Shown piece after piece: positions 2,518 to 54,593 of a stretch of DNA of 54,593 bases. Origin of the DNA: Phycisphaerae bacterium (lineage in GTDB: Bacteria; Planctomycetota; Phycisphaerae; Sedimentisphaerales; Anaerohalosphaeraceae); the NCBI GenBank assembly GCA_012729675.1, contig JAAYCR010000043.1, positions 1 through 54,593 of the forward strand, read 5' to 3'. Under the pieces are notes generated by a model. The model did no database searches. It was not told the origin of the DNA and worked only from the letters and a program-made list of their open reading frames with translations. Position 1 is the stretch's first letter, and every line of letters starts with the position of its first letter. Position numbers and translations under genes: made by a program.

Positions 2518-2985
2518 GTGAAATTTGTGGTTTCTAAACGTAAACAACAGGGTATCGCACTGGCTGACCTGCTGATCGGGCTGATGATCGGGTCGATTGT
2601 GCTGGCGGCGGCGGCGACGATGGCGGATGCGATGAGCCACGGCAAACGCGCTACCGAGCAGATGGCCCGCTCGTCCAACTATCTGGCACAGGTGCATATC
2701 CGACTGGGCGACCTTGTGATGCGGGCCGAAAGCGTTGCCCCCCGCGACGGCGGCGGCGTGCTGCTGACCTATGCCGATGGACGGATGGCCGAGCTGTATT
2801 CGGATAACGAAAACCGTATTGTAATCGCCGAAAACGGTGAAATCGCCTCCTTTTTGTCCGACCCTGCCCAGACGGCCGTCAGTATTACAGCGATTGACCT
2901 TCATCGCGCGGCCATAACGTTCGATATAGAAGGCACCGCTTATACGATGACGGCCACCCGGCGAGGCGGCATCAAAGAAAATTAA
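2518..2985 (+). CDS. Minor pseudopilin-like protein (possible GspJ)
   Basis: The protein is about 155 aa. A Lys/Arg/Gln-rich leader ends in QQG, followed by IALADLLIGLMIGSIVL, a hydrophobic helix of about 20 residues. The site is G|I with Asp rather than Glu at +5, so it is a weak but plausible prepilin. Position between GspI-like and GspK-like genes suggests a GspJ-type subunit; sequence alone does not prove it. No ATG start is available. I choose GTG at 2518; TTG at 2515 and GTG at 2527 are alternatives, and there is no good ribosome binding site. The start region coincides with a half-copy of the ACAGAT palindrome (GGTGAAATTTGTGGTTTC), so repeat DNA may have replaced the original start. 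Confidence 0.6.
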   Translation: MKFVVSKRKQQGIALADLLIGLMIGSIVLAAAATMADAMSHGKRATEQMARSSNYLAQVHIRLGDLVMRAESVAPRDGGGVLLTYADGRMAELYSDNENRIVIAENGEIASFLSDPAQTAVSITAIDLHRAAITFDIEGTAYTMTATRRGGIKEN

Positions 2986-3015
2986 AGATCAAAGATCAAA
3001 AATTAAAGATGTGGA
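2984..3015. repeat. AAAGATC direct-repeat tract
   Basis: The spacer after the GspJ-like gene begins with the units AAAGATCAAAGATCAAAAATTAAAGAT, and further on (3041-3075) ATGTTAAATGTCAAATG units follow. The second tract lies inside the probable leader-coding part of the next gene. It is the same style of short-period repeat seen at 9262-9315 and 11885-11925. Confidence 0.5.
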
Positions 3016-3042
3016 TTCGGCCTTTGGCCGAGACTGAAAATA

Positions 3043-3594
3043 ATGTTAAATGTTAAATGTCAAATGTTAAATGTTCGAGATACACGCTTTGGTGTATTGT
3101 GCGTTAACAGGCTAAAGCCTGAACTACGAACTAAGAACTACGCACTAAGAACTCATCGACGACGGGGGATGGCGCTGCTGACGGTGCTGTTTATTGTCGC
3201 GGCGGTGATGACGGTGTCGCTGGGGATATTGTACCGGGCGGACCTGGCCGCGGCCGGCGGGCACAACTACGCCCTGCGGACACAGGCCGACTATATCGCC
3301 TGGGCCGGGCTGGAACACGCCCGCGCATTGATTGTGGTCGATCCGGACAACCCCGATACCGATGCGACGTTTGCACTGGAGGACGAAGCTCAATTCTTTT
3401 ACATCCTGCCGTCGATAGCCGACCCCAACAAAACCGACCCGTCCCTATGGCAATACGAAGTCGCCTGCGAAGTCTATTACATCAAAAGCTCCATCACACA
3501 GCCTTACAGTAAGCTGACCGCCTCCGTCCTGTACGATCCCAACGAGCTGAACACTCCCCGCACCCGCTTGACGCATATTCGTCGTACACAATAG
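3043..3594 (+). CDS. Minor pseudopilin (GspK-like), leader encoded by repeat DNA
   Basis: The core reads RRRG|MALLTVLFIVAAV, then a hydrophobic helix, LYRADLAAAG and a segment on tip-subunit lines (WAGLEHARAL). GspK proteins have the pattern RG(V/M)ALL and lack Glu +5, as here (Thr). The ATG at 3169 falls exactly at the +1 residue, so starting there would remove the leader peptide. An upstream start is therefore needed: ATG 3043 or 3064, or TTG 3097. The leader is then translated from the short-repeat tract and a GGCTAAAGCC/CTACGAACTA repeat. No clear ribosome binding site precedes any candidate. At about 140 residues after the site it is shorter than well-studied GspK proteins. Confidence 0.6.
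   Translation: MLNVKCQMLNVRDTRFGVLCVNRLKPELRTKNYALRTHRRRGMALLTVLFIVAAVMTVSLGILYRADLAAAGGHNYALRTQADYIAWAGLEHARALIVVDPDNPDTDATFALEDEAQFFYILPSIADPNKTDPSLWQYEVACEVYYIKSSITQPYSKLTASVLYDPNELNTPRTRLTHIRRTQ
3105..3152. repeat. GGCTAAAGCC hairpin and CTACGAACTA tract inside the GspK-like leader
   Basis: CAGGCTAAAGCCTG is followed by AACTACGAACTAAGAACTAC units, the same composite as at 382-431. In frame it would encode RLKPELRTKNYALRT, giving a basic leader to the prepilin. Confidence 0.6.
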
Positions 3595-47248: not shown

Positions 47249-49903
47249 TCAGTTCGTCCCCTCCCAGAGCACCATCCCCTGCTCATACGGCTCGACTAGA
47301 TCTTTATGACGCGGTAAAATCCGCAGCGAAAAGCCGTGCTTGCCCGATGCGTGACAAGGAATCGATCCGCTGAACTTCGCCTCTTTGTTTTCATTCAGCG
47401 ACCCTTCGACAAACCGCATGTCGGTAATCTGAGGATGCTCAATCCGTCCAGCCGAATCCACAACGCCGTGGAAAATCTGCACCGACACATCCTCCGGCGT
47501 AAGCCGTCCAAGCTGCACTTGGGCGCTGACCGTGATTACGGCGCCGACTTGCAGCTCCGGGCTTCGTCCGTTCCAGTGCGTGAAAACCTCGCCGTTTTGG
47601 GTCTGGACTTCGACGTTGCGAATCTCCAGATCGCTCCAGGCATGGCGGACATTGTTTTTCCACATCGCCAGCTCACGAACCCGCGCGCTGTCGTCGGAGG
47701 TCAGCTCGCGCCATTTGACATCGGCGGCCGTATAAAATTTTCGCGTATAGTCGGCCACCATCCGGCTGGTATTGAACCGGGGGGCGCACCATTTGATGGT
47801 GTTCTTCATCCGTCGGATCCAGCGCCGCGGCAGCCGTTCCTTGGATTGTGCAAAATACAGCGGCACCACTTCCTGCTCCAGCAGATTGAAGATCGCATGC
47901 GACTCAACCTGATCCTGATACGCCAGGTCGTCGTATTCCTCGCCGGCCCCAATGATCCAGCCGCCGTCGGGGATGTACCCTTCGCACCACCACCCGTCCA
48001 GCGTACTCATATTCAGCACGCCGTTGAGGGCCGCCTTCATCCCGCTGGTGCCGCTGGCCTCCATCGGCCGCCGCGGATTGTTCAGCCAGACGTCCACGCC
48101 CTGAACCAGATACCGGGCGATATCGATATCGTAATCTTCCAAAAACAGCAATCGCCGGCGAATCTCCGGATGCTCGCTGGCAAAATGCACCAACTGCCGG
48201 ATGATCTCTTTGCCCGCCGTGTCGCGCGGATGGGCCTTGCCGGCAAAGATAAACTGCACCGGCGTTTCGGTATTGCTCAGCAGTTTGATCAGCCGCTGGG
48301 GCTCGCGCAGCAGCAGATTGCCACGTTTATACGTCGCAAATCGCCGCGCAAACCCGATGGTCAAGGCTTCCGGGTCCAGCACTTCTTCGGCCCAGTTCAG
48401 CTCGGTATGAAATGCGCCGCGCCGCTGAAGCTGACGTTTCAGACGCGAACGCGCAAAGCCCACCAGACGTTCCTTGCACCGCTGATGAATCCGCCACAAC
48501 TCCTCGTCCGGAATCTGGTCGATGTTGTGCCAGATGGATTTATCGACCACCTCTTCGCCCCAGCGCGCCCCCAGATACCGCTCAAACAGCATATTGATCT
48601 CGGCGCTGAGCCAGGTCTTGGCGTGAATGCCGTTGGTGATGGCGTTGATCGGCACCTCTTCGGTCGGCAGCTCCATCCATAGGCCAGACCATATCTTCCG
48701 TGACACCTCGCCGTGAAGCTGGCTGACACCGTTGCGATAGGCGCTGGTGCGGATCGCCAGCACCGGCATCTTGAACGTTTCGGTTGCGTTGTCCGCGTGC
48801 ACGCGTCCCAAGGCCAAGAACTGCTCGCGGTTAAGCCCCAGCTTACCGTAGTAATGGCCGAAGTACTTATCGATCATCTCGGCCGGAAACTCATCGTTGC
48901 CCGCCGCCACCGGCGTGTGCACGGTGAAGACATTGCTGGCCTTGGCCGCCTCAAACGCCTCTTCGTAGGTCATATTGTACCGGCTGCGAATCCGCCGCAC
49001 ACGCTCCAGCGCCATAAACGCCGCATGACCCTCGTTCATGTGACAGACCGACGGCTCAAGGTTCATCCCATACAGGGCTTTGAGACCGCCGATGCCCAGC
49101 ACGATCTCCTGACAAATACGCATCTCCGAATCGCCGCCGTACAGCGTCTGCGTGATCGTTCGATCAAACGTGGAATTTGTCGGCAGATTGGTATCCAGCA
49201 AAAACAGCGGCGTGCGTCCGATCATCGCCTTCCAGATCTGGGCGGTAACCGTTCGTCCCGGAAACGGAATATTCACCGTCAGCGGGTGGCCGCTTTCCTT
49301 ACGCACCATCGTCACCGGCATATTGTGGAAATCGTTATCGATATAATGTTCCTGCTGCCAGCCGTCGGTGTTCAGGTATTGCCGAAAGTACCCTTTTTGG
49401 TACAACAGCCCGATCCCCACCAGCGGCACCCCCAGATCCGAGGCGCTTTTTAAATGATCGCCCGCCAGAATCCCCAAGCCGCCGGAATAAATCGGCAGGC
49501 TTTCGTGAACGCCGAATTCGGCGCTGAAATACGCGATGACCGGGGACACGCCGTCGCGGGAGTAAATCTTGTCAAACCAGGACGGCGCCGTCAGCGTCTC
49601 ATCCAGCTTCTGACGCGCCTGCTGCAATTGATACAAAAATCCTTCGTTCCTCGCCAAATCCTCCAGACGCGCCTGCGAGACCATCCCCAGCATGCGAATC
49701 GGGTTATGGGCGCACTGCTTCCACAGGTCGTAATCAATCCGGCGAAAAATCTCCGCAATTTCATAATGCCATGACCAGTACAAATTCTCGGCCACAACAA
49801 CCAAATCTTTCAGGGCCTCCGGCAGCGACGGTTTTACGGTAAACGTTCGCACCGTCTGGATGCCCATTTTTTCATGCTTAGGTAAATCTGTCGATAATGT
49901 CAT
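47249..49903 (-). CDS. glgP: Alpha-glucan (glycogen) phosphorylase
   Basis: The 884-aa enzyme releases glucose-1-phosphate from glycogen using PLP. It has the short N-terminal DUF3417-type start (NLYWSWHYEIAEIFRRID), YSGGLGILAGDHLKSASDLG, GHAAFMALERVR, TVHTPVAAGNDEF, TNGIHAKTW, and the PLP-Lys region MEASGTSGMKAALNGVLNMS. This is the alpha-glucan phosphorylase subfamily common in thermophiles and planctomycetes rather than the classical mammalian-type. Length and motifs look complete. No other glycogen gene is near. Confidence 0.94.
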   Translation of the reverse strand: MTLSTDLPKHEKMGIQTVRTFTVKPSLPEALKDLVVVAENLYWSWHYEIAEIFRRIDYDLWKQCAHNPIRMLGMVSQARLEDLARNEGFLYQLQQARQKLDETLTAPSWFDKIYSRDGVSPVIAYFSAEFGVHESLPIYSGGLGILAGDHLKSASDLGVPLVGIGLLYQKGYFRQYLNTDGWQQEHYIDNDFHNMPVTMVRKESGHPLTVNIPFPGRTVTAQIWKAMIGRTPLFLLDTNLPTNSTFDRTITQTLYGGDSEMRICQEIVLGIGGLKALYGMNLEPSVCHMNEGHAAFMALERVRRIRSRYNMTYEEAFEAAKASNVFTVHTPVAAGNDEFPAEMIDKYFGHYYGKLGLNREQFLALGRVHADNATETFKMPVLAIRTSAYRNGVSQLHGEVSRKIWSGLWMELPTEEVPINAITNGIHAKTWLSAEINMLFERYLGARWGEEVVDKSIWHNIDQIPDEELWRIHQRCKERLVGFARSRLKRQLQRRGAFHTELNWAEEVLDPEALTIGFARRFATYKRGNLLLREPQRLIKLLSNTETPVQFIFAGKAHPRDTAGKEIIRQLVHFASEHPEIRRRLLFLEDYDIDIARYLVQGVDVWLNNPRRPMEASGTSGMKAALNGVLNMSTLDGWWCEGYIPDGGWIIGAGEEYDDLAYQDQVESHAIFNLLEQEVVPLYFAQSKERLPRRWIRRMKNTIKWCAPRFNTSRMVADYTRKFYTAADVKWRELTSDDSARVRELAMWKNNVRHAWSDLEIRNVEVQTQNGEVFTHWNGRSPELQVGAVITVSAQVQLGRLTPEDVSVQIFHGVVDSAGRIEHPQITDMRFVEGSLNENKEAKFSGSIPCHASGKHGFSLRILPRHKDLVEPYEQGMVLWEGTN

Positions 49904-51722: not shown

Positions 51723-52136
51723 TTATTTATTCTTAGATATTGAAGTCGTGCTTTGTCCATTTTCAAAAACAGTTTCATAGCAATATACAGCATCTTTCTT
51801 TTCGACTTGCCAGGACAGGACTAATTTATTTTTGTTCGAGGATACTTTGAATTTATTCAATAGTTCTTGGTATTTTGAACCTCCCGAAGGAGAACCTGTA
51901 TAACATTTTTCGAAAACTTTGTCTTCAATCTGCGATAAAGATTCAGGGTACTCCTGATTCGACTCATAGTATTCACGTATACAAGTTCGTATTACGTTAT
52001 CTAAGAGCATTAAATCGGAATGTACTTGGTTTTGTTTTACGAGTGGTTTAATATAAGAGAAAAACAATACTCCAATAAAAGATAAAATCACAAAAATACA
52101 GATAACCGTAAGCAGAATTTTGTTTCTGGATTTCAT
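51723..52136 (-). CDS. Single-pass membrane protein, Rhs-locus accessory
   Basis: This 137-aa protein is unrecognised. It has one membrane segment at about residues 7-31 (ILLTVICIFVILSFIGVLFF), followed by a soluble part with LDNVIRTCIREYYESNQEYPESLSQIE, reminiscent of pilin-like or small lipoprotein-like folds, and a Cys pair. It is AT-rich and lies between a displaced Rhs core fragment and a DUF6714-like gene. An immunity or envelope function is possible from context only. AAGGAG precedes the ATG at about 10 bases. Confidence 0.5.
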   Translation of the reverse strand: MKSRNKILLTVICIFVILSFIGVLFFSYIKPLVKQNQVHSDLMLLDNVIRTCIREYYESNQEYPESLSQIEDKVFEKCYTGSPSGGSKYQELLNKFKVSSNKNKLVLSWQVEKKDAVYCYETVFENGQSTTSISKNK

Positions 52137-52150
52137 AAATTATATGCTCC

Positions 52151-52807
52151 TTAGTATTTATTCCAGTACTGTGCCAAGGCTTCCTGCGGCGTATCTCTGG
52201 GGTCGTGAATTTTAATATCTTCAGCATATTCGGCAATCAGGTATTCCAAAAACAGTCTTATCGCATGTTTTTGATGCACCGAAAATAGATCAAATGTTTT
52301 TCGCTTCTCTTCGGTTCTTTTCCGAAATAATGCAACAATATCGCTTTTATCTCCAGAAAATTCTACAGTCAGGTATTCCAAAACCATCTTTATCTCATGT
52401 TTTTGCTGCTCCGAAAGAAGATCGTCAGTTCTATCCAGCACCAATGCAACACTATCACTCTTTGTGCTTTCATCAAAAACAAATTTCCAATCAAGAATCA
52501 GATTTTGGACAACATGATCAGAATCGCACTGATTATAGTGCTGCGCAGCAATTATCATATATCCCGGCAAATAATAGCAGAACGCCAGTGGAGTTAGATC
52601 ATCCAGCCACGGCCAAGAATACCAATTTGTTTCTTCGGAATAACAACGTTCAGGTAAATCCTGCCATCGAACCCCGCCCAGCCCAGCCGTCTTATTGCCG
52701 CCATACTCTGCCTTGGCCATTCCTTTGCGAAGTATCTCTTTGTCTTTTGGGGGTGGTAAATCACCAAACGCTTGTTTAATTTCATGAATCAAGGTATCGA
52801 TATCCAT
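52151..52807 (-). CDS. DUF6714-like protein, possible immunity protein
   Basis: This 218-aa soluble protein contains WQDLPERCYSEETNWYSWPW and LAFCYYLPGYMIIA, which resemble DUF6714. The C-terminal half has an internal duplication: DLLSEQQKHEIKMVLEYLTV and DLFSVHQKHAIRLFLEYLIA, about 46 residues apart. AAAGGG precedes the ATG. The gene is 24 bp after the stop of an Rhs core fragment, the place where the cognate immunity gene of an Rhs tip is found. I infer immunity from position; the family is not proven to have that role. Confidence 0.6.
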   Translation of the reverse strand: MDIDTLIHEIKQAFGDLPPPKDKEILRKGMAKAEYGGNKTAGLGGVRWQDLPERCYSEETNWYSWPWLDDLTPLAFCYYLPGYMIIAAQHYNQCDSDHVVQNLILDWKFVFDESTKSDSVALVLDRTDDLLSEQQKHEIKMVLEYLTVEFSGDKSDIVALFRKRTEEKRKTFDLFSVHQKHAIRLFLEYLIAEYAEDIKIHDPRDTPQEALAQYWNKY

Positions 52808-52831
52808 TTTTTCCCTTTTATGAAACTCAGC

Positions 52832-53239
52832 TTATTGTGGCTTAGTTGCTTTTGGGATTGGGTCTCTTTTCGCGAGATCATCCGCGATATACTTTACGCA
52901 GTTTGCTATACTCGTTCCATAGCGTTCCACGGCCGTGCCGATCGGCCCATACAAGACCGCCGGGTACAGATGATCGTGCCCGTAGTAGAGGTCCTGATTC
53001 GGCGCCTGCGCGGGAATGACATGCATCAGCAGCACCTCGTCGATGTAGTTGCCGAAGACAAAATACCGGTCGTCCGTCTCGACATTGCCGGAAACGAGCG
53101 TCTGCACCGCCACCCGCTGGTCGTCGTAGTAGTACCGCCTTGTCGTCCCCGCTATTGCGTCCACCTTTTCAATCCTTCGGCCTTCAGTTGTTTCTTTCGT
53201 GTTAAACATCGTAAACATTGCCGTATCTTCTGCACCCAC
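52832..53239 (-). pseudogene. Displaced Rhs core fragment with alternative C-terminus
   Basis: The 135-aa frame reads RRIEKVDAIAGTTRRYYYDD, then FVFGNYIDEVLLMHVIPAQA and a C-terminal part ending in DDLAKRDPIPKATKPQ. The last part departs from the normal Rhs order (no EYDAYGN and no DPLGL-type end). The frame has no good start, and the same segment reappears in the main Rhs gene at the right edge (GNYIDETLMMHVIPAQAG). It is an orphan Rhs core piece with a displaced or decayed tip. Confidence 0.72.
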
Positions 53240-53339: not shown

Positions 53340-53576
53340 TCATTGTTTCTTATTTTTCCAGTGTAATCTCCCGTTATATATGCCTGCTCCAATCGAGAAA
53401 AGCCAAACAAATATGTAAAACAAAAGGAAATAAATGTTATCTTCGGGAGATTTTGGCAAAAAAAGTTTTAACAAAAAACTTAGCAAGCACATCAAAACAA
53501 GAGTAGTGCCAATGGCTATGCCACAAGACTTCAGAATCTTCTCTATTCTATTACTGGAAACGACATTATTTTTCAT
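53340..53576 (-). CDS. Two-TM membrane protein in immunity position
   Basis: ATG 53576 is chosen because AAAGGAAAGATACTC lies before it; a longer frame from 53831 overlaps the Rhs gene. The protein is 78 aa with membrane segments at about residues 14-36 (GIAIGTTLVLMCLLSFLLKL) and 46-65 (IYFLLFYIFVWLFSIGAG). It starts 16 bases after the stop of the Rhs toxin frame. Small two-TM proteins directly downstream of Rhs tips are often cognate immunity factors for membrane-active toxins. I infer that; there is no family match. Confidence 0.55.
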   Translation of the reverse strand: MKNNVVSSNRIEKILKSCGIAIGTTLVLMCLLSFLLKLFLPKSPEDNIYFLLFYIFVWLFSIGAGIYNGRLHWKNKKQ

Positions 53577-53592
53577 GAGTATCTTTCCTTTG

Positions 53593-54593
53593 TTATATTT
53601 TTCTTGTGACAGTTCCAGTAAGGGTGGTATCCCAATAGCCAAAAATATGAAAAGGTTTTCCAAGATAGCCATATGGAATATCATACCAAGCAAAATCATA
53701 TAAATCGTAAAGAGTCCATTTTGTTTTACAGTGCCAGAATGCACTCTTTTTTCCTTCTCTACATTGTATTGGTCCCATCTTGCACTGAGAATCCCAATAA
53801 ACAGTAAAGCCTTGAAGCGACAGCCGTACATTCGTACTCAAAAAATCAGCCCATACCGTCTGCCTATTTCTATCAGAAAAAGTTTCATAACTTCCAATAT
53901 CTGTGCGCGCCAACGCAACAAGTGCATCCAGCTCTAATCGTCTTTCGACAGAAGCATTAAGTTCAAGTACTTCAGATTGTCCGCGAACATCCAACAAGAA
54001 ATTACCTCCAAGAATTGCATATTCAGCCGACGTTCCATCGTCCCATATATAATATCTATCCCTTAAAAAGAAGCTATATAGCCGAAGATGCATAGTATTA
54101 GACCAAGAGGCACTGAAGTCCCATCTTTTGCCATTCTTGGGCAGAACCGGAGCCTTGGGACCATTTGGATTGAAGTCTATATGCAAACCTAAGGGGTCTG
54201 ACCATCTATTAGGGTTACTTTTCACATACTCATATACGTTCATCCCGTCAATATACATTAACGGATCCCTCTGCATAAACCTTCCGGTTTCGGGGTCGAT
54301 GGTGCGGGCGCGGTAGTACATGAGGGTGCGGCGGCCGGCGTCGAGGGTGTCCAGTTCCCTTCCCGTAAACGCATACGGGTTGCCGTGCTGCGATGAATTA
54401 AGAATTAAGAATTCAGAATTAAGAATTTGGCAATTGCCGTAGGCGTCGTATTCGTAGCGCTCGGCGACTGTGCCGTTGGCGGCGAACAGGGCGACGGGGC
54501 TGTAGAGGTGGTCGTGGGCGTAGTAGAGGTCCTGGGTTCCCGCCTGCGCGGGAATGACGTGCATCATCAGCGTCTCGTCGATGTAGTTGCCGA
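53593..54593 (-). CDS. Rhs-family protein C-terminus with unrecognised toxin tip (partial)
   Basis: The frame continues past the right edge: GNYIDETLMMHVIPAQAG is Rhs core. Core and end signature are present: LYYAHDHLYSPVALF, AERYEYDAYGN, YYRARTIDPETGRFMQRDPL and NRWSDPLGL. Everything after PLGL (about 196 residues, starting HIDFNPNG) is a tip, probably the toxin; no family is recognised. Three Cys lie at CKMGPIQC and HCKTKW. The tip is AT-rich compared with the core, as expected for an exchangeable module. Inside the core, after DAYGN, a short AT-rich repeat is translated as ILNSEFLILNSS. The immunity-like gene follows by 16 bp. Confidence 0.8.
   Translation of the reverse strand, partial: GNYIDETLMMHVIPAQAGTQDLYYAHDHLYSPVALFAANGTVAERYEYDAYGNCQILNSEFLILNSSQHGNPYAFTGRELDTLDAGRRTLMYYRARTIDPETGRFMQRDPLMYIDGMNVYEYVKSNPNRWSDPLGLHIDFNPNGPKAPVLPKNGKRWDFSASWSNTMHLRLYSFFLRDRYYIWDDGTSAEYAILGGNFLLDVRGQSEVLELNASVERRLELDALVALARTDIGSYETFSDRNRQTVWADFLSTNVRLSLQGFTVYWDSQCKMGPIQCREGKKSAFWHCKTKWTLYDLYDFAWYDIPYGYLGKPFHIFGYWDTTLTGTVTRKI
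54394..54432. repeat. GAATTAAGAATTA repeat inside the Rhs frame
   Basis: The tract GAATTAAGAATTAAGAATTC plus AGAATTAAGAATT lies inside the Rhs reading frame and keeps it open, coding for ILNSEFLILNS. It belongs to the class of AT-rich short direct-repeat tracts seen in spacers (for example 1305-1440). Confidence 0.6.

Follow-up and report, generated by a model that had tools for sequence, protein, structure and literature searches.

Colicin M destroys cell-wall building blocks at the membrane. Bacteriocins of the ColM family carry the signature DxYDx5HR (PMC5821083, PMC8469651), which in colicin M itself reads D226KYDFNASTHR and includes an arginine, R236, described as essential (PMC8469651). 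ColM proteins can lose hydrolysis when signature residues are missing or replaced, and a pectocin M1 mutant that lacks lipid II hydrolysis is still able to lyse cells from the periplasm; a noted peculiarity of these bacteriocins is that their membrane-associated immunity proteins are diverse and mutually unrelated (PMC5821083). A T6SS effector-immunity pair, DUF3289/DUF943, has been reported as colicin M homologues (PMC11148199). We came across no earlier account of ColM-type Rhs tips from Planctomycetota in the open-access literature searched, although such accounts may exist elsewhere. The planctomycete locus described here encodes an Rhs tip with the first half of the ColM signature, directly followed by a gene for a small two-TM protein.

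Layout of an Rhs tip and a neighbouring small membrane-protein gene

The window, by which we mean the whole stretch of 54,593 nucleotides analysed, is the entire contig C33 of a 2.8-Mb genome assembled in 96 contigs. The features of its last 3 kb are as follows.

54591 to 53593, minus strand: Rhs-core/tip ORF, 332 aa, an open frame entering from the contig end
54591 to 54184, minus strand: 3' end of the Rhs core, closing in SDPLGL (...NRWSDPLGL), recognised by TIGR03696
54183 to 53596, minus strand: C-terminal tip, HIDFNPNG...RKI, 196 aa, predicted toxin domain of an undescribed superfamily
53706 to 53692, minus strand: DLYDF, at residues 160-164 of the tip, corresponding to the opening half of the ColM signature DxYDx5HR
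53661 to 53632, minus strand: GKPFHIFGYW, tip residues 175-184, superfamily motif GxPFxIxGxW, from alignments
53590 to 53583, minus strand: ribosome-binding site AAGGAAAG of the 78-aa gene, from the sequence
53576 to 53340, minus strand: 78-aa two-TM protein, candidate immunity protein by its ORF, hydropathy and position after the tip
53525 to 53469, minus strand: hydrophobic segment 1 of the 78-aa protein, residues 18-36 (Kyte-Doolittle 2.34)
53435 to 53379, minus strand: hydrophobic segment 2 of the 78-aa protein, residues 48-66 (Kyte-Doolittle 2.18)
53239 to 52832, minus strand: decayed second cassette, an Rhs core fragment without a recognisable tip, from its ORF and a core comparison
52807 to 52151, minus strand: 218-aa DUF6714 protein, probable orphan immunity gene (Pfam E 3e-9)
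52136 to 51723, minus strand: 137-aa ORF, one hydrophobic segment near its N-terminus, which by position only may be an orphan immunity gene

All described features of the toxin-immunity layout thus lie on the minus strand. Residues 1-136 of the Rhs ORF do form an Rhs-associated core (TIGR03696, E 2.4e-17 over residues 48-136), and the conserved PLGL boundary named in an initial annotation of this DNA is confirmed, the core ending in SDPLGL and a variable tip following it. That tip, put at roughly 196 residues in the annotation, is exactly 196 residues long and closes with a TAA stop codon at 53595-53593. The annotation had also placed a gene with its own ribosome-binding site and two membrane segments 16 bp downstream, and this too holds: the 78-aa ORF starts at an ATG at 53576, exactly 16 nt past the tip stop, behind AAGGAAAG.

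The Rhs ORF is cut by the contig end (54593) and, the 5' part of the Rhs gene being off the contig, may be either the main Rhs gene or an orphan cassette. C33 and another contig of the same genome, C41, each terminate within near-identical copies of the core (98%), and these ends are an assembly break at a repeat. A related full-length Rhs protein in genome G191 begins with a stretch that, by eye, resembles a Sec signal. Within 54390-54593 the core frame of the window also holds two in-frame dispersed repeats: firstly, a REP-like repeat read as HVIPAQAGTQ, with matches in contigs C92, C85 and C65; secondly, an AT-rich GAATTAA repeat read as QILNSEFLILNSSQ, with matches in C29, C26, C91, C7 and C10.

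Cassettes that are decayed or orphaned continue the locus beyond the 78-aa gene (51723-53239). In the same-genus genome G002 a homologue of the DUF6714 protein (L169 2428-2973; BLASTP E 9e-15) follows a quite different Rhs tip, so the copy in the window is probably an orphan immunity gene and DUF6714 itself probably an Rhs immunity family. More Rhs core fragments lie on contigs C41, C14 and C28 of the source genome, where different tips are followed by different ORFs, many with TM segments, and G002 holds three cassettes with other tips and other following genes; such differences are the usual variable-cassette behaviour of Rhs loci. No relative of the window tip was found in the same-genus genomes searched.

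The tip belongs to a superfamily of domains at bacteriocin-like C-termini

The tip had been described as unassignable to any known family, and its sequence alone indeed found no match in Pfam, NCBIfam, PHROGs, PDB sequences, plasmids, or our genome-contig and viral-contig libraries. A search of 392 genomes of the phylum recovered its C-terminal part in G173, a Phycisphaeraceae MAG of the same class as the source genome, where (contig L069) the tip survives only as a C-terminal relic. The DNA pattern for W.[LF]YD.YDF, run against the genome-contig library, gave 26 matches of which two were relatives: L069 again and L068, from a Planctomycetaceae MAG, in which the tip ends a 1083-aa open Rhs frame. 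Several other loci with E-values that looked real (L013 and L014, from genomes closely related to the source; L048-L050; L056; L057; L085) were rejected as unrelated frames. In both the window (47249-49903) and L069 (2010-4721) the tip has a glycogen-phosphorylase gene downstream of it on its own strand, which may reflect a shared ancestral site or coincidence.

A small two-TM ORF directly follows the tip in all three members of this subfamily, encoding 78 aa in the window and 71 and about 92 aa in the other two. We had expected these proteins to be homologous and dropped the idea: alignments scored against topology-preserving shuffles revealed no detectable mutual similarity (window versus L069, p 0.175; versus L068, p 0.55), and our claim is therefore limited to common topology and position. 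The linked variation of tip and 78-aa gene that the initial annotation anticipated is accordingly borne out in part. Two-TM ORFs do follow both other subfamily tips, and other genes follow the other tips in G002; on the other side, the partners share no detectable sequence similarity and one tip of the three survives only in degraded form.

These comparisons bear on whether the locus encodes an active toxin at all. It could be a decaying Rhs remnant with a relic tip and neighbour, or the 78-aa ORF could be adjacent by chance; we consider either improbable. Four observations would suit such a remnant: the neighbouring cassette (52832-53239) is tipless, L069 preserves only the C-terminal part of a tip, the contig lacks the 5' end of the Rhs gene, and no sequence similarity joins the small TM proteins. 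Against it, the tip frame is fully open with intact motifs, a good ribosome-binding site precedes the 78-aa ORF, and each of the three subfamily tips, including the one in the intact Rhs ORF of L068 from a different planctomycete family, has a two-TM ORF after it.

Tips outside the subfamily extend the comparison. The C41 tip of the source genome and tips in G511, G251, G191 and G261 have a common C-terminal pattern ending GTPFxIxxxW. In G261 an Rhs fragment adjoining the superfamily tip (L047 2522-3166) has a tip of its own that looks HicA-like by eye. By tblastn the C41 tip weakly matched a Xenorhabdus plasmid protein (E 0.3, 84% coverage), which together with its relative on plasmid pXT11 led to the prophage protein L088. 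A motif pattern then identified 16 prophage loci, one of them on the contig of L088 and the other 15 encoding all or part of a roughly 400-aa protein. In the 398- and 403-aa prophage proteins (L091, L094) the domain is C-terminal and 115-117-aa multi-TM ORFs lie next to the genes; the N-terminus of L091 appears, by eye, to include a TonB-box-like sequence. At the three loci whose flanks were read (L091, L094, L098) the gene sits between the portal gene and a fused protease/capsid gene and is followed by the 115-117-aa multi-TM ORF. Bacteriocin-like and multi-TM partner genes inside a prophage head module occupy an unusual cargo slot (L091 7212-8755; L094 3147-4717; L098 4028-5096). A second pattern added L122, a stand-alone 174-aa domain whose gene overlaps a 114-aa multi-TM ORF.

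The L088 protein (2731-3519) has 262 aa, with a Cys-rich N-terminal part (CPICGEKDC) and a C-terminal superfamily domain, and is encoded beside an integrase gene. Residues 11-90 match the colicin Z family model NF041263 (E 9.6e-7, 28.9 bits); L088 matches in this N-terminal part only, short of a full-length match to the model, for which the cut-off is 300 bits, and the window ORF gave no match to it. Telocins TelC and TelD are relatives of the colicin Z family (PMC12042878). L086 and L088 have convergent two-TM ORFs of 60-65 aa that are mutually homologous (z 8.4), that of L088 being 60 aa long and having a homologue beside the Xenorhabdus plasmid relative. On Xenorhabdus plasmid pXT11 the annotated start of the gene convergent to the toxin-like gene (L087 4407-4955, minus strand) probably lies too far downstream: by eye, an earlier ATG in the same frame adds two hydrophobic segments.

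To what extent are these domains homologous? By hhalign the tip family (three sequences) matched five other planctomycete Rhs tips at 93% (E 2.9e-7, 147 columns), these five tips matched five prophage domains at 97.5% (E 5.8e-12), and the tip family matched the prophage domains directly only weakly (35%, E 4e-4). A profile built from eight superfamily members, none of them in the tip family, scored the tip at 13.8 bits and the L068 tip at 16.0; the best of 500 shuffles of the tip reached 3.9, and none of 500 of either tip exceeded 5.0. On an eleven-member profile the tip scored 12.1 and six unrelated planctomycete Rhs tips scored below 0. Taken together, the profile, hhalign and control results make the homology of the tip to other planctomycete tips good. 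Its apparent homology to the prophage domains rests mainly on the chain through those other tips.

No known non-toxin domain, the finding that would have undercut the original reading, turned up among the matches; instead the profile groups the tip with the C-termini of bacteriocin-like proteins from gammaproteobacterial prophages and plasmids, each of them encoded next to a TM-protein ORF. This grouping, together with the two-TM ORF after each of the three subfamily tips, supports the toxin-immunity layout proposed for this DNA. We conclude that the locus is very probably an Rhs toxin-immunity pair, in which the tip would be toxic and the 78-aa protein protective.

The colicin M comparison and a possible mode of action

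The idea of a ColM relationship was drawn from the DxYD motif and recorded ahead of any fold search. An AlphaFold model of the tip from three sequences reached a pLDDT of only 33 and was set aside. From eight sequences, the tip among them, the domain of L094 was modelled as a beta-sheet domain at pLDDT 82.4 and pTM 0.75. Foldseek alone, run with this model against the PDB and a viral library, returned poor E-values, mainly to RNA-phage coat proteins and actin-capping protein, which we dismissed as common beta-sheet arrangements. Realignment of the top 1000 Foldseek chains placed pectocin M2 (two entries), pectocin M1, PaeM and syringacin M at ranks 1-5, all through their ColM-family C-terminal activity domains (110-123 residues, Z 4.5-5.0, which is modest and below the safe level). 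The next rows were unrelated proteins, including methyltransferases, with Z up to 4.3; the Bacteroides T6SS effector BtpeA (9jdi), on which our literature search found no paper, also appeared, at Z 3.7. We give weight to the ColM ranks despite their modest Z because one family, named beforehand, occupies the top. A ColM-related fold is moderately probable, as modelled on the prophage relative; since the result stems from that relative, we do not claim the fold as a membership feature of the tip.

The sequence comparison gives half of the signature. Y159, D160, Y162, D163 and F164 are invariant columns of the tip-family alignment, and the signature regions read DLYDFAWYDIP in the tip, DRYDFPWWLIP in L068 and DKYDFAAWNLW in L069, the opening DKYDF of the last being identical to D226KYDF of colicin M. 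The HR positions are taken by IP, IP and LW, respectively. Across the superfamily HR is missing throughout, and the D of LYD and the W of GxW are nearly invariant. Pfam PF14859 and DUF3289 matched neither the tip nor its relatives; PF14859 had no match in the source genome, in a search in which no control genome matched either; and superfamily profiles run against PDB sequences found no ColM sequence or other relative. Judged on these sequence features, with the signature incomplete and PF14859 unmatched, the tip is not a ColM protein by membership criteria. It could plausibly work like one.

The kind of attack can be narrowed further. The tip has no hydrophobic segment (maximum Kyte-Doolittle hydropathy 0.64), nor does the L068 tip (0.98), so that the hydrophobic helical hairpin of pore-forming colicins was found in neither, and the model of the relative L094 shows beta sheet where a colicin channel would be helical. 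We therefore rejected a membrane-permeabilising toxin, pore-forming or depolarising, whose pore the two-TM protein would block as with pore-forming colicins. What speaks for such a toxin, which we regard as quite unlikely, is that small TM immunity proteins and convergent immunity genes like those of L086 and L088 are also typical of pore-forming colicins; convergent immunity genes have been noted for membrane-acting colicins and colicin M alike (PMC6668396).

An action on or at the membrane, as the initial annotation suggested from the two-TM neighbour, fits the ColM-like fold evidence, and the explanation that we favour overall, by a narrow measure, is a diverged ColM-like Rhs toxin that would hit lipid-linked wall precursors, paired with a candidate immunity protein of two TM segments. 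In this view the Rhs shell takes its C-terminal tip out of the producer and onto a competitor. There the tip, predicted to be soluble and rich in beta structure with a fold diverged from that of colicin M, would attack lipid II or other lipid-linked peptidoglycan precursors on the outside of the cytoplasmic membrane and so bring wall synthesis to a halt. In the producer's own membrane the 78-aa two-TM protein would block the tip domain. Loss of signature residues can abolish hydrolysis, yet lipid-II-inactive pectocin M1 can lyse cells, and for this reason we name lipid-linked wall precursors as the target only tentatively.

The same facts leave room for an envelope-acting toxin with two-TM immunity whose chemistry or target is other than lipid II, with a fold that is ColM-like or not: its active site might be rebuilt for another lipid-linked or membrane substrate, or it might bind lipid II without cleaving it. 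The superfamily-wide absence of HR beside the nearly invariant D of LYD and W of GxW points this way, as does lysis from the periplasm by pectocin M1 without lipid II hydrolysis (PMC5821083); planctomycete Rhs tips also carry conserved cysteines, which would suit an oxidising compartment. Set against these are the DxYDF retained in the tip family and the ColM structures at the top for the L094 model, and we judge such a target rather unlikely. A broader proposal, less secure than the lipid-linked target but somewhat better placed than a target other than lipid II, is that planctomycete Rhs tips and gammaproteobacterial prophage and plasmid bacteriocins form an undescribed toxin-domain superfamily with recurrent two- to four-TM immunity. 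Its members would keep a ColM-like fold and the metal-binding half of the signature and would have lost HR, which in that reading implies either that the active site was remodelled or that the target is another lipid-linked molecule of the envelope.

Comparison with described toxin systems

These results give a testable identity to a class of Rhs tips unnamed in current libraries and join it to equally unnamed domains of phage- and plasmid-borne bacteriocin-like proteins. If the ColM link is true, lipid-linked wall precursors are attacked by a toxin family wider than PF14859, and ColM-type weapons reach both Planctomycetota and Rhs delivery. The loss of HR with DxYDF kept would then offer a natural series for comparing the ColM mechanism directly, and the unrelated small membrane proteins bear on how ColM-type immunity proteins work.

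The window resembles Rhs polymorphic toxin systems in its conserved core, DPLGL boundary, variable tip and adjacent immunity candidate, and, like those with orphan tip/immunity cassettes, it has degraded or orphan cassettes nearby; it differs in a tip type that is not named in Pfam, NCBIfam or PHROGs. The colicin Z family resembles the superfamily in the colicin-Z-like N-terminal part that precedes the domain in L088 and in a convergent membrane immunity gene, but this likeness is limited to the N-terminal delivery region of L088 and does not extend to the toxin domain, and the window protein has no such part. DUF3289 is, as proposed here for the tip superfamily, a divergent relative of ColM recognised by structure, outside the classical bacteriocins and with its own immunity protein; the window differs in having no DUF3289 sequence match and no DUF943-type neighbour.

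The closest comparison is with the ColM family (colicin M, PaeM, syringacin M, pectocins M1 and M2; PF14859). Firstly, the toxin domain is C-terminal in bacteriocins in both; secondly, this family is the best structural match, at modest Z, of the superfamily model and has the same DxYDF at the opening of its signature; thirdly, the many unrelated types of membrane-associated immunity protein known for ColM bacteriocins fit, by analogy, the pattern seen at the tip loci, including the window cassette. The tip differs from the ColM family in the missing x5-HR half, in matching neither PF14859 nor any ColM entry of the PDB by sequence, and in its predicted Rhs delivery and planctomycete host.
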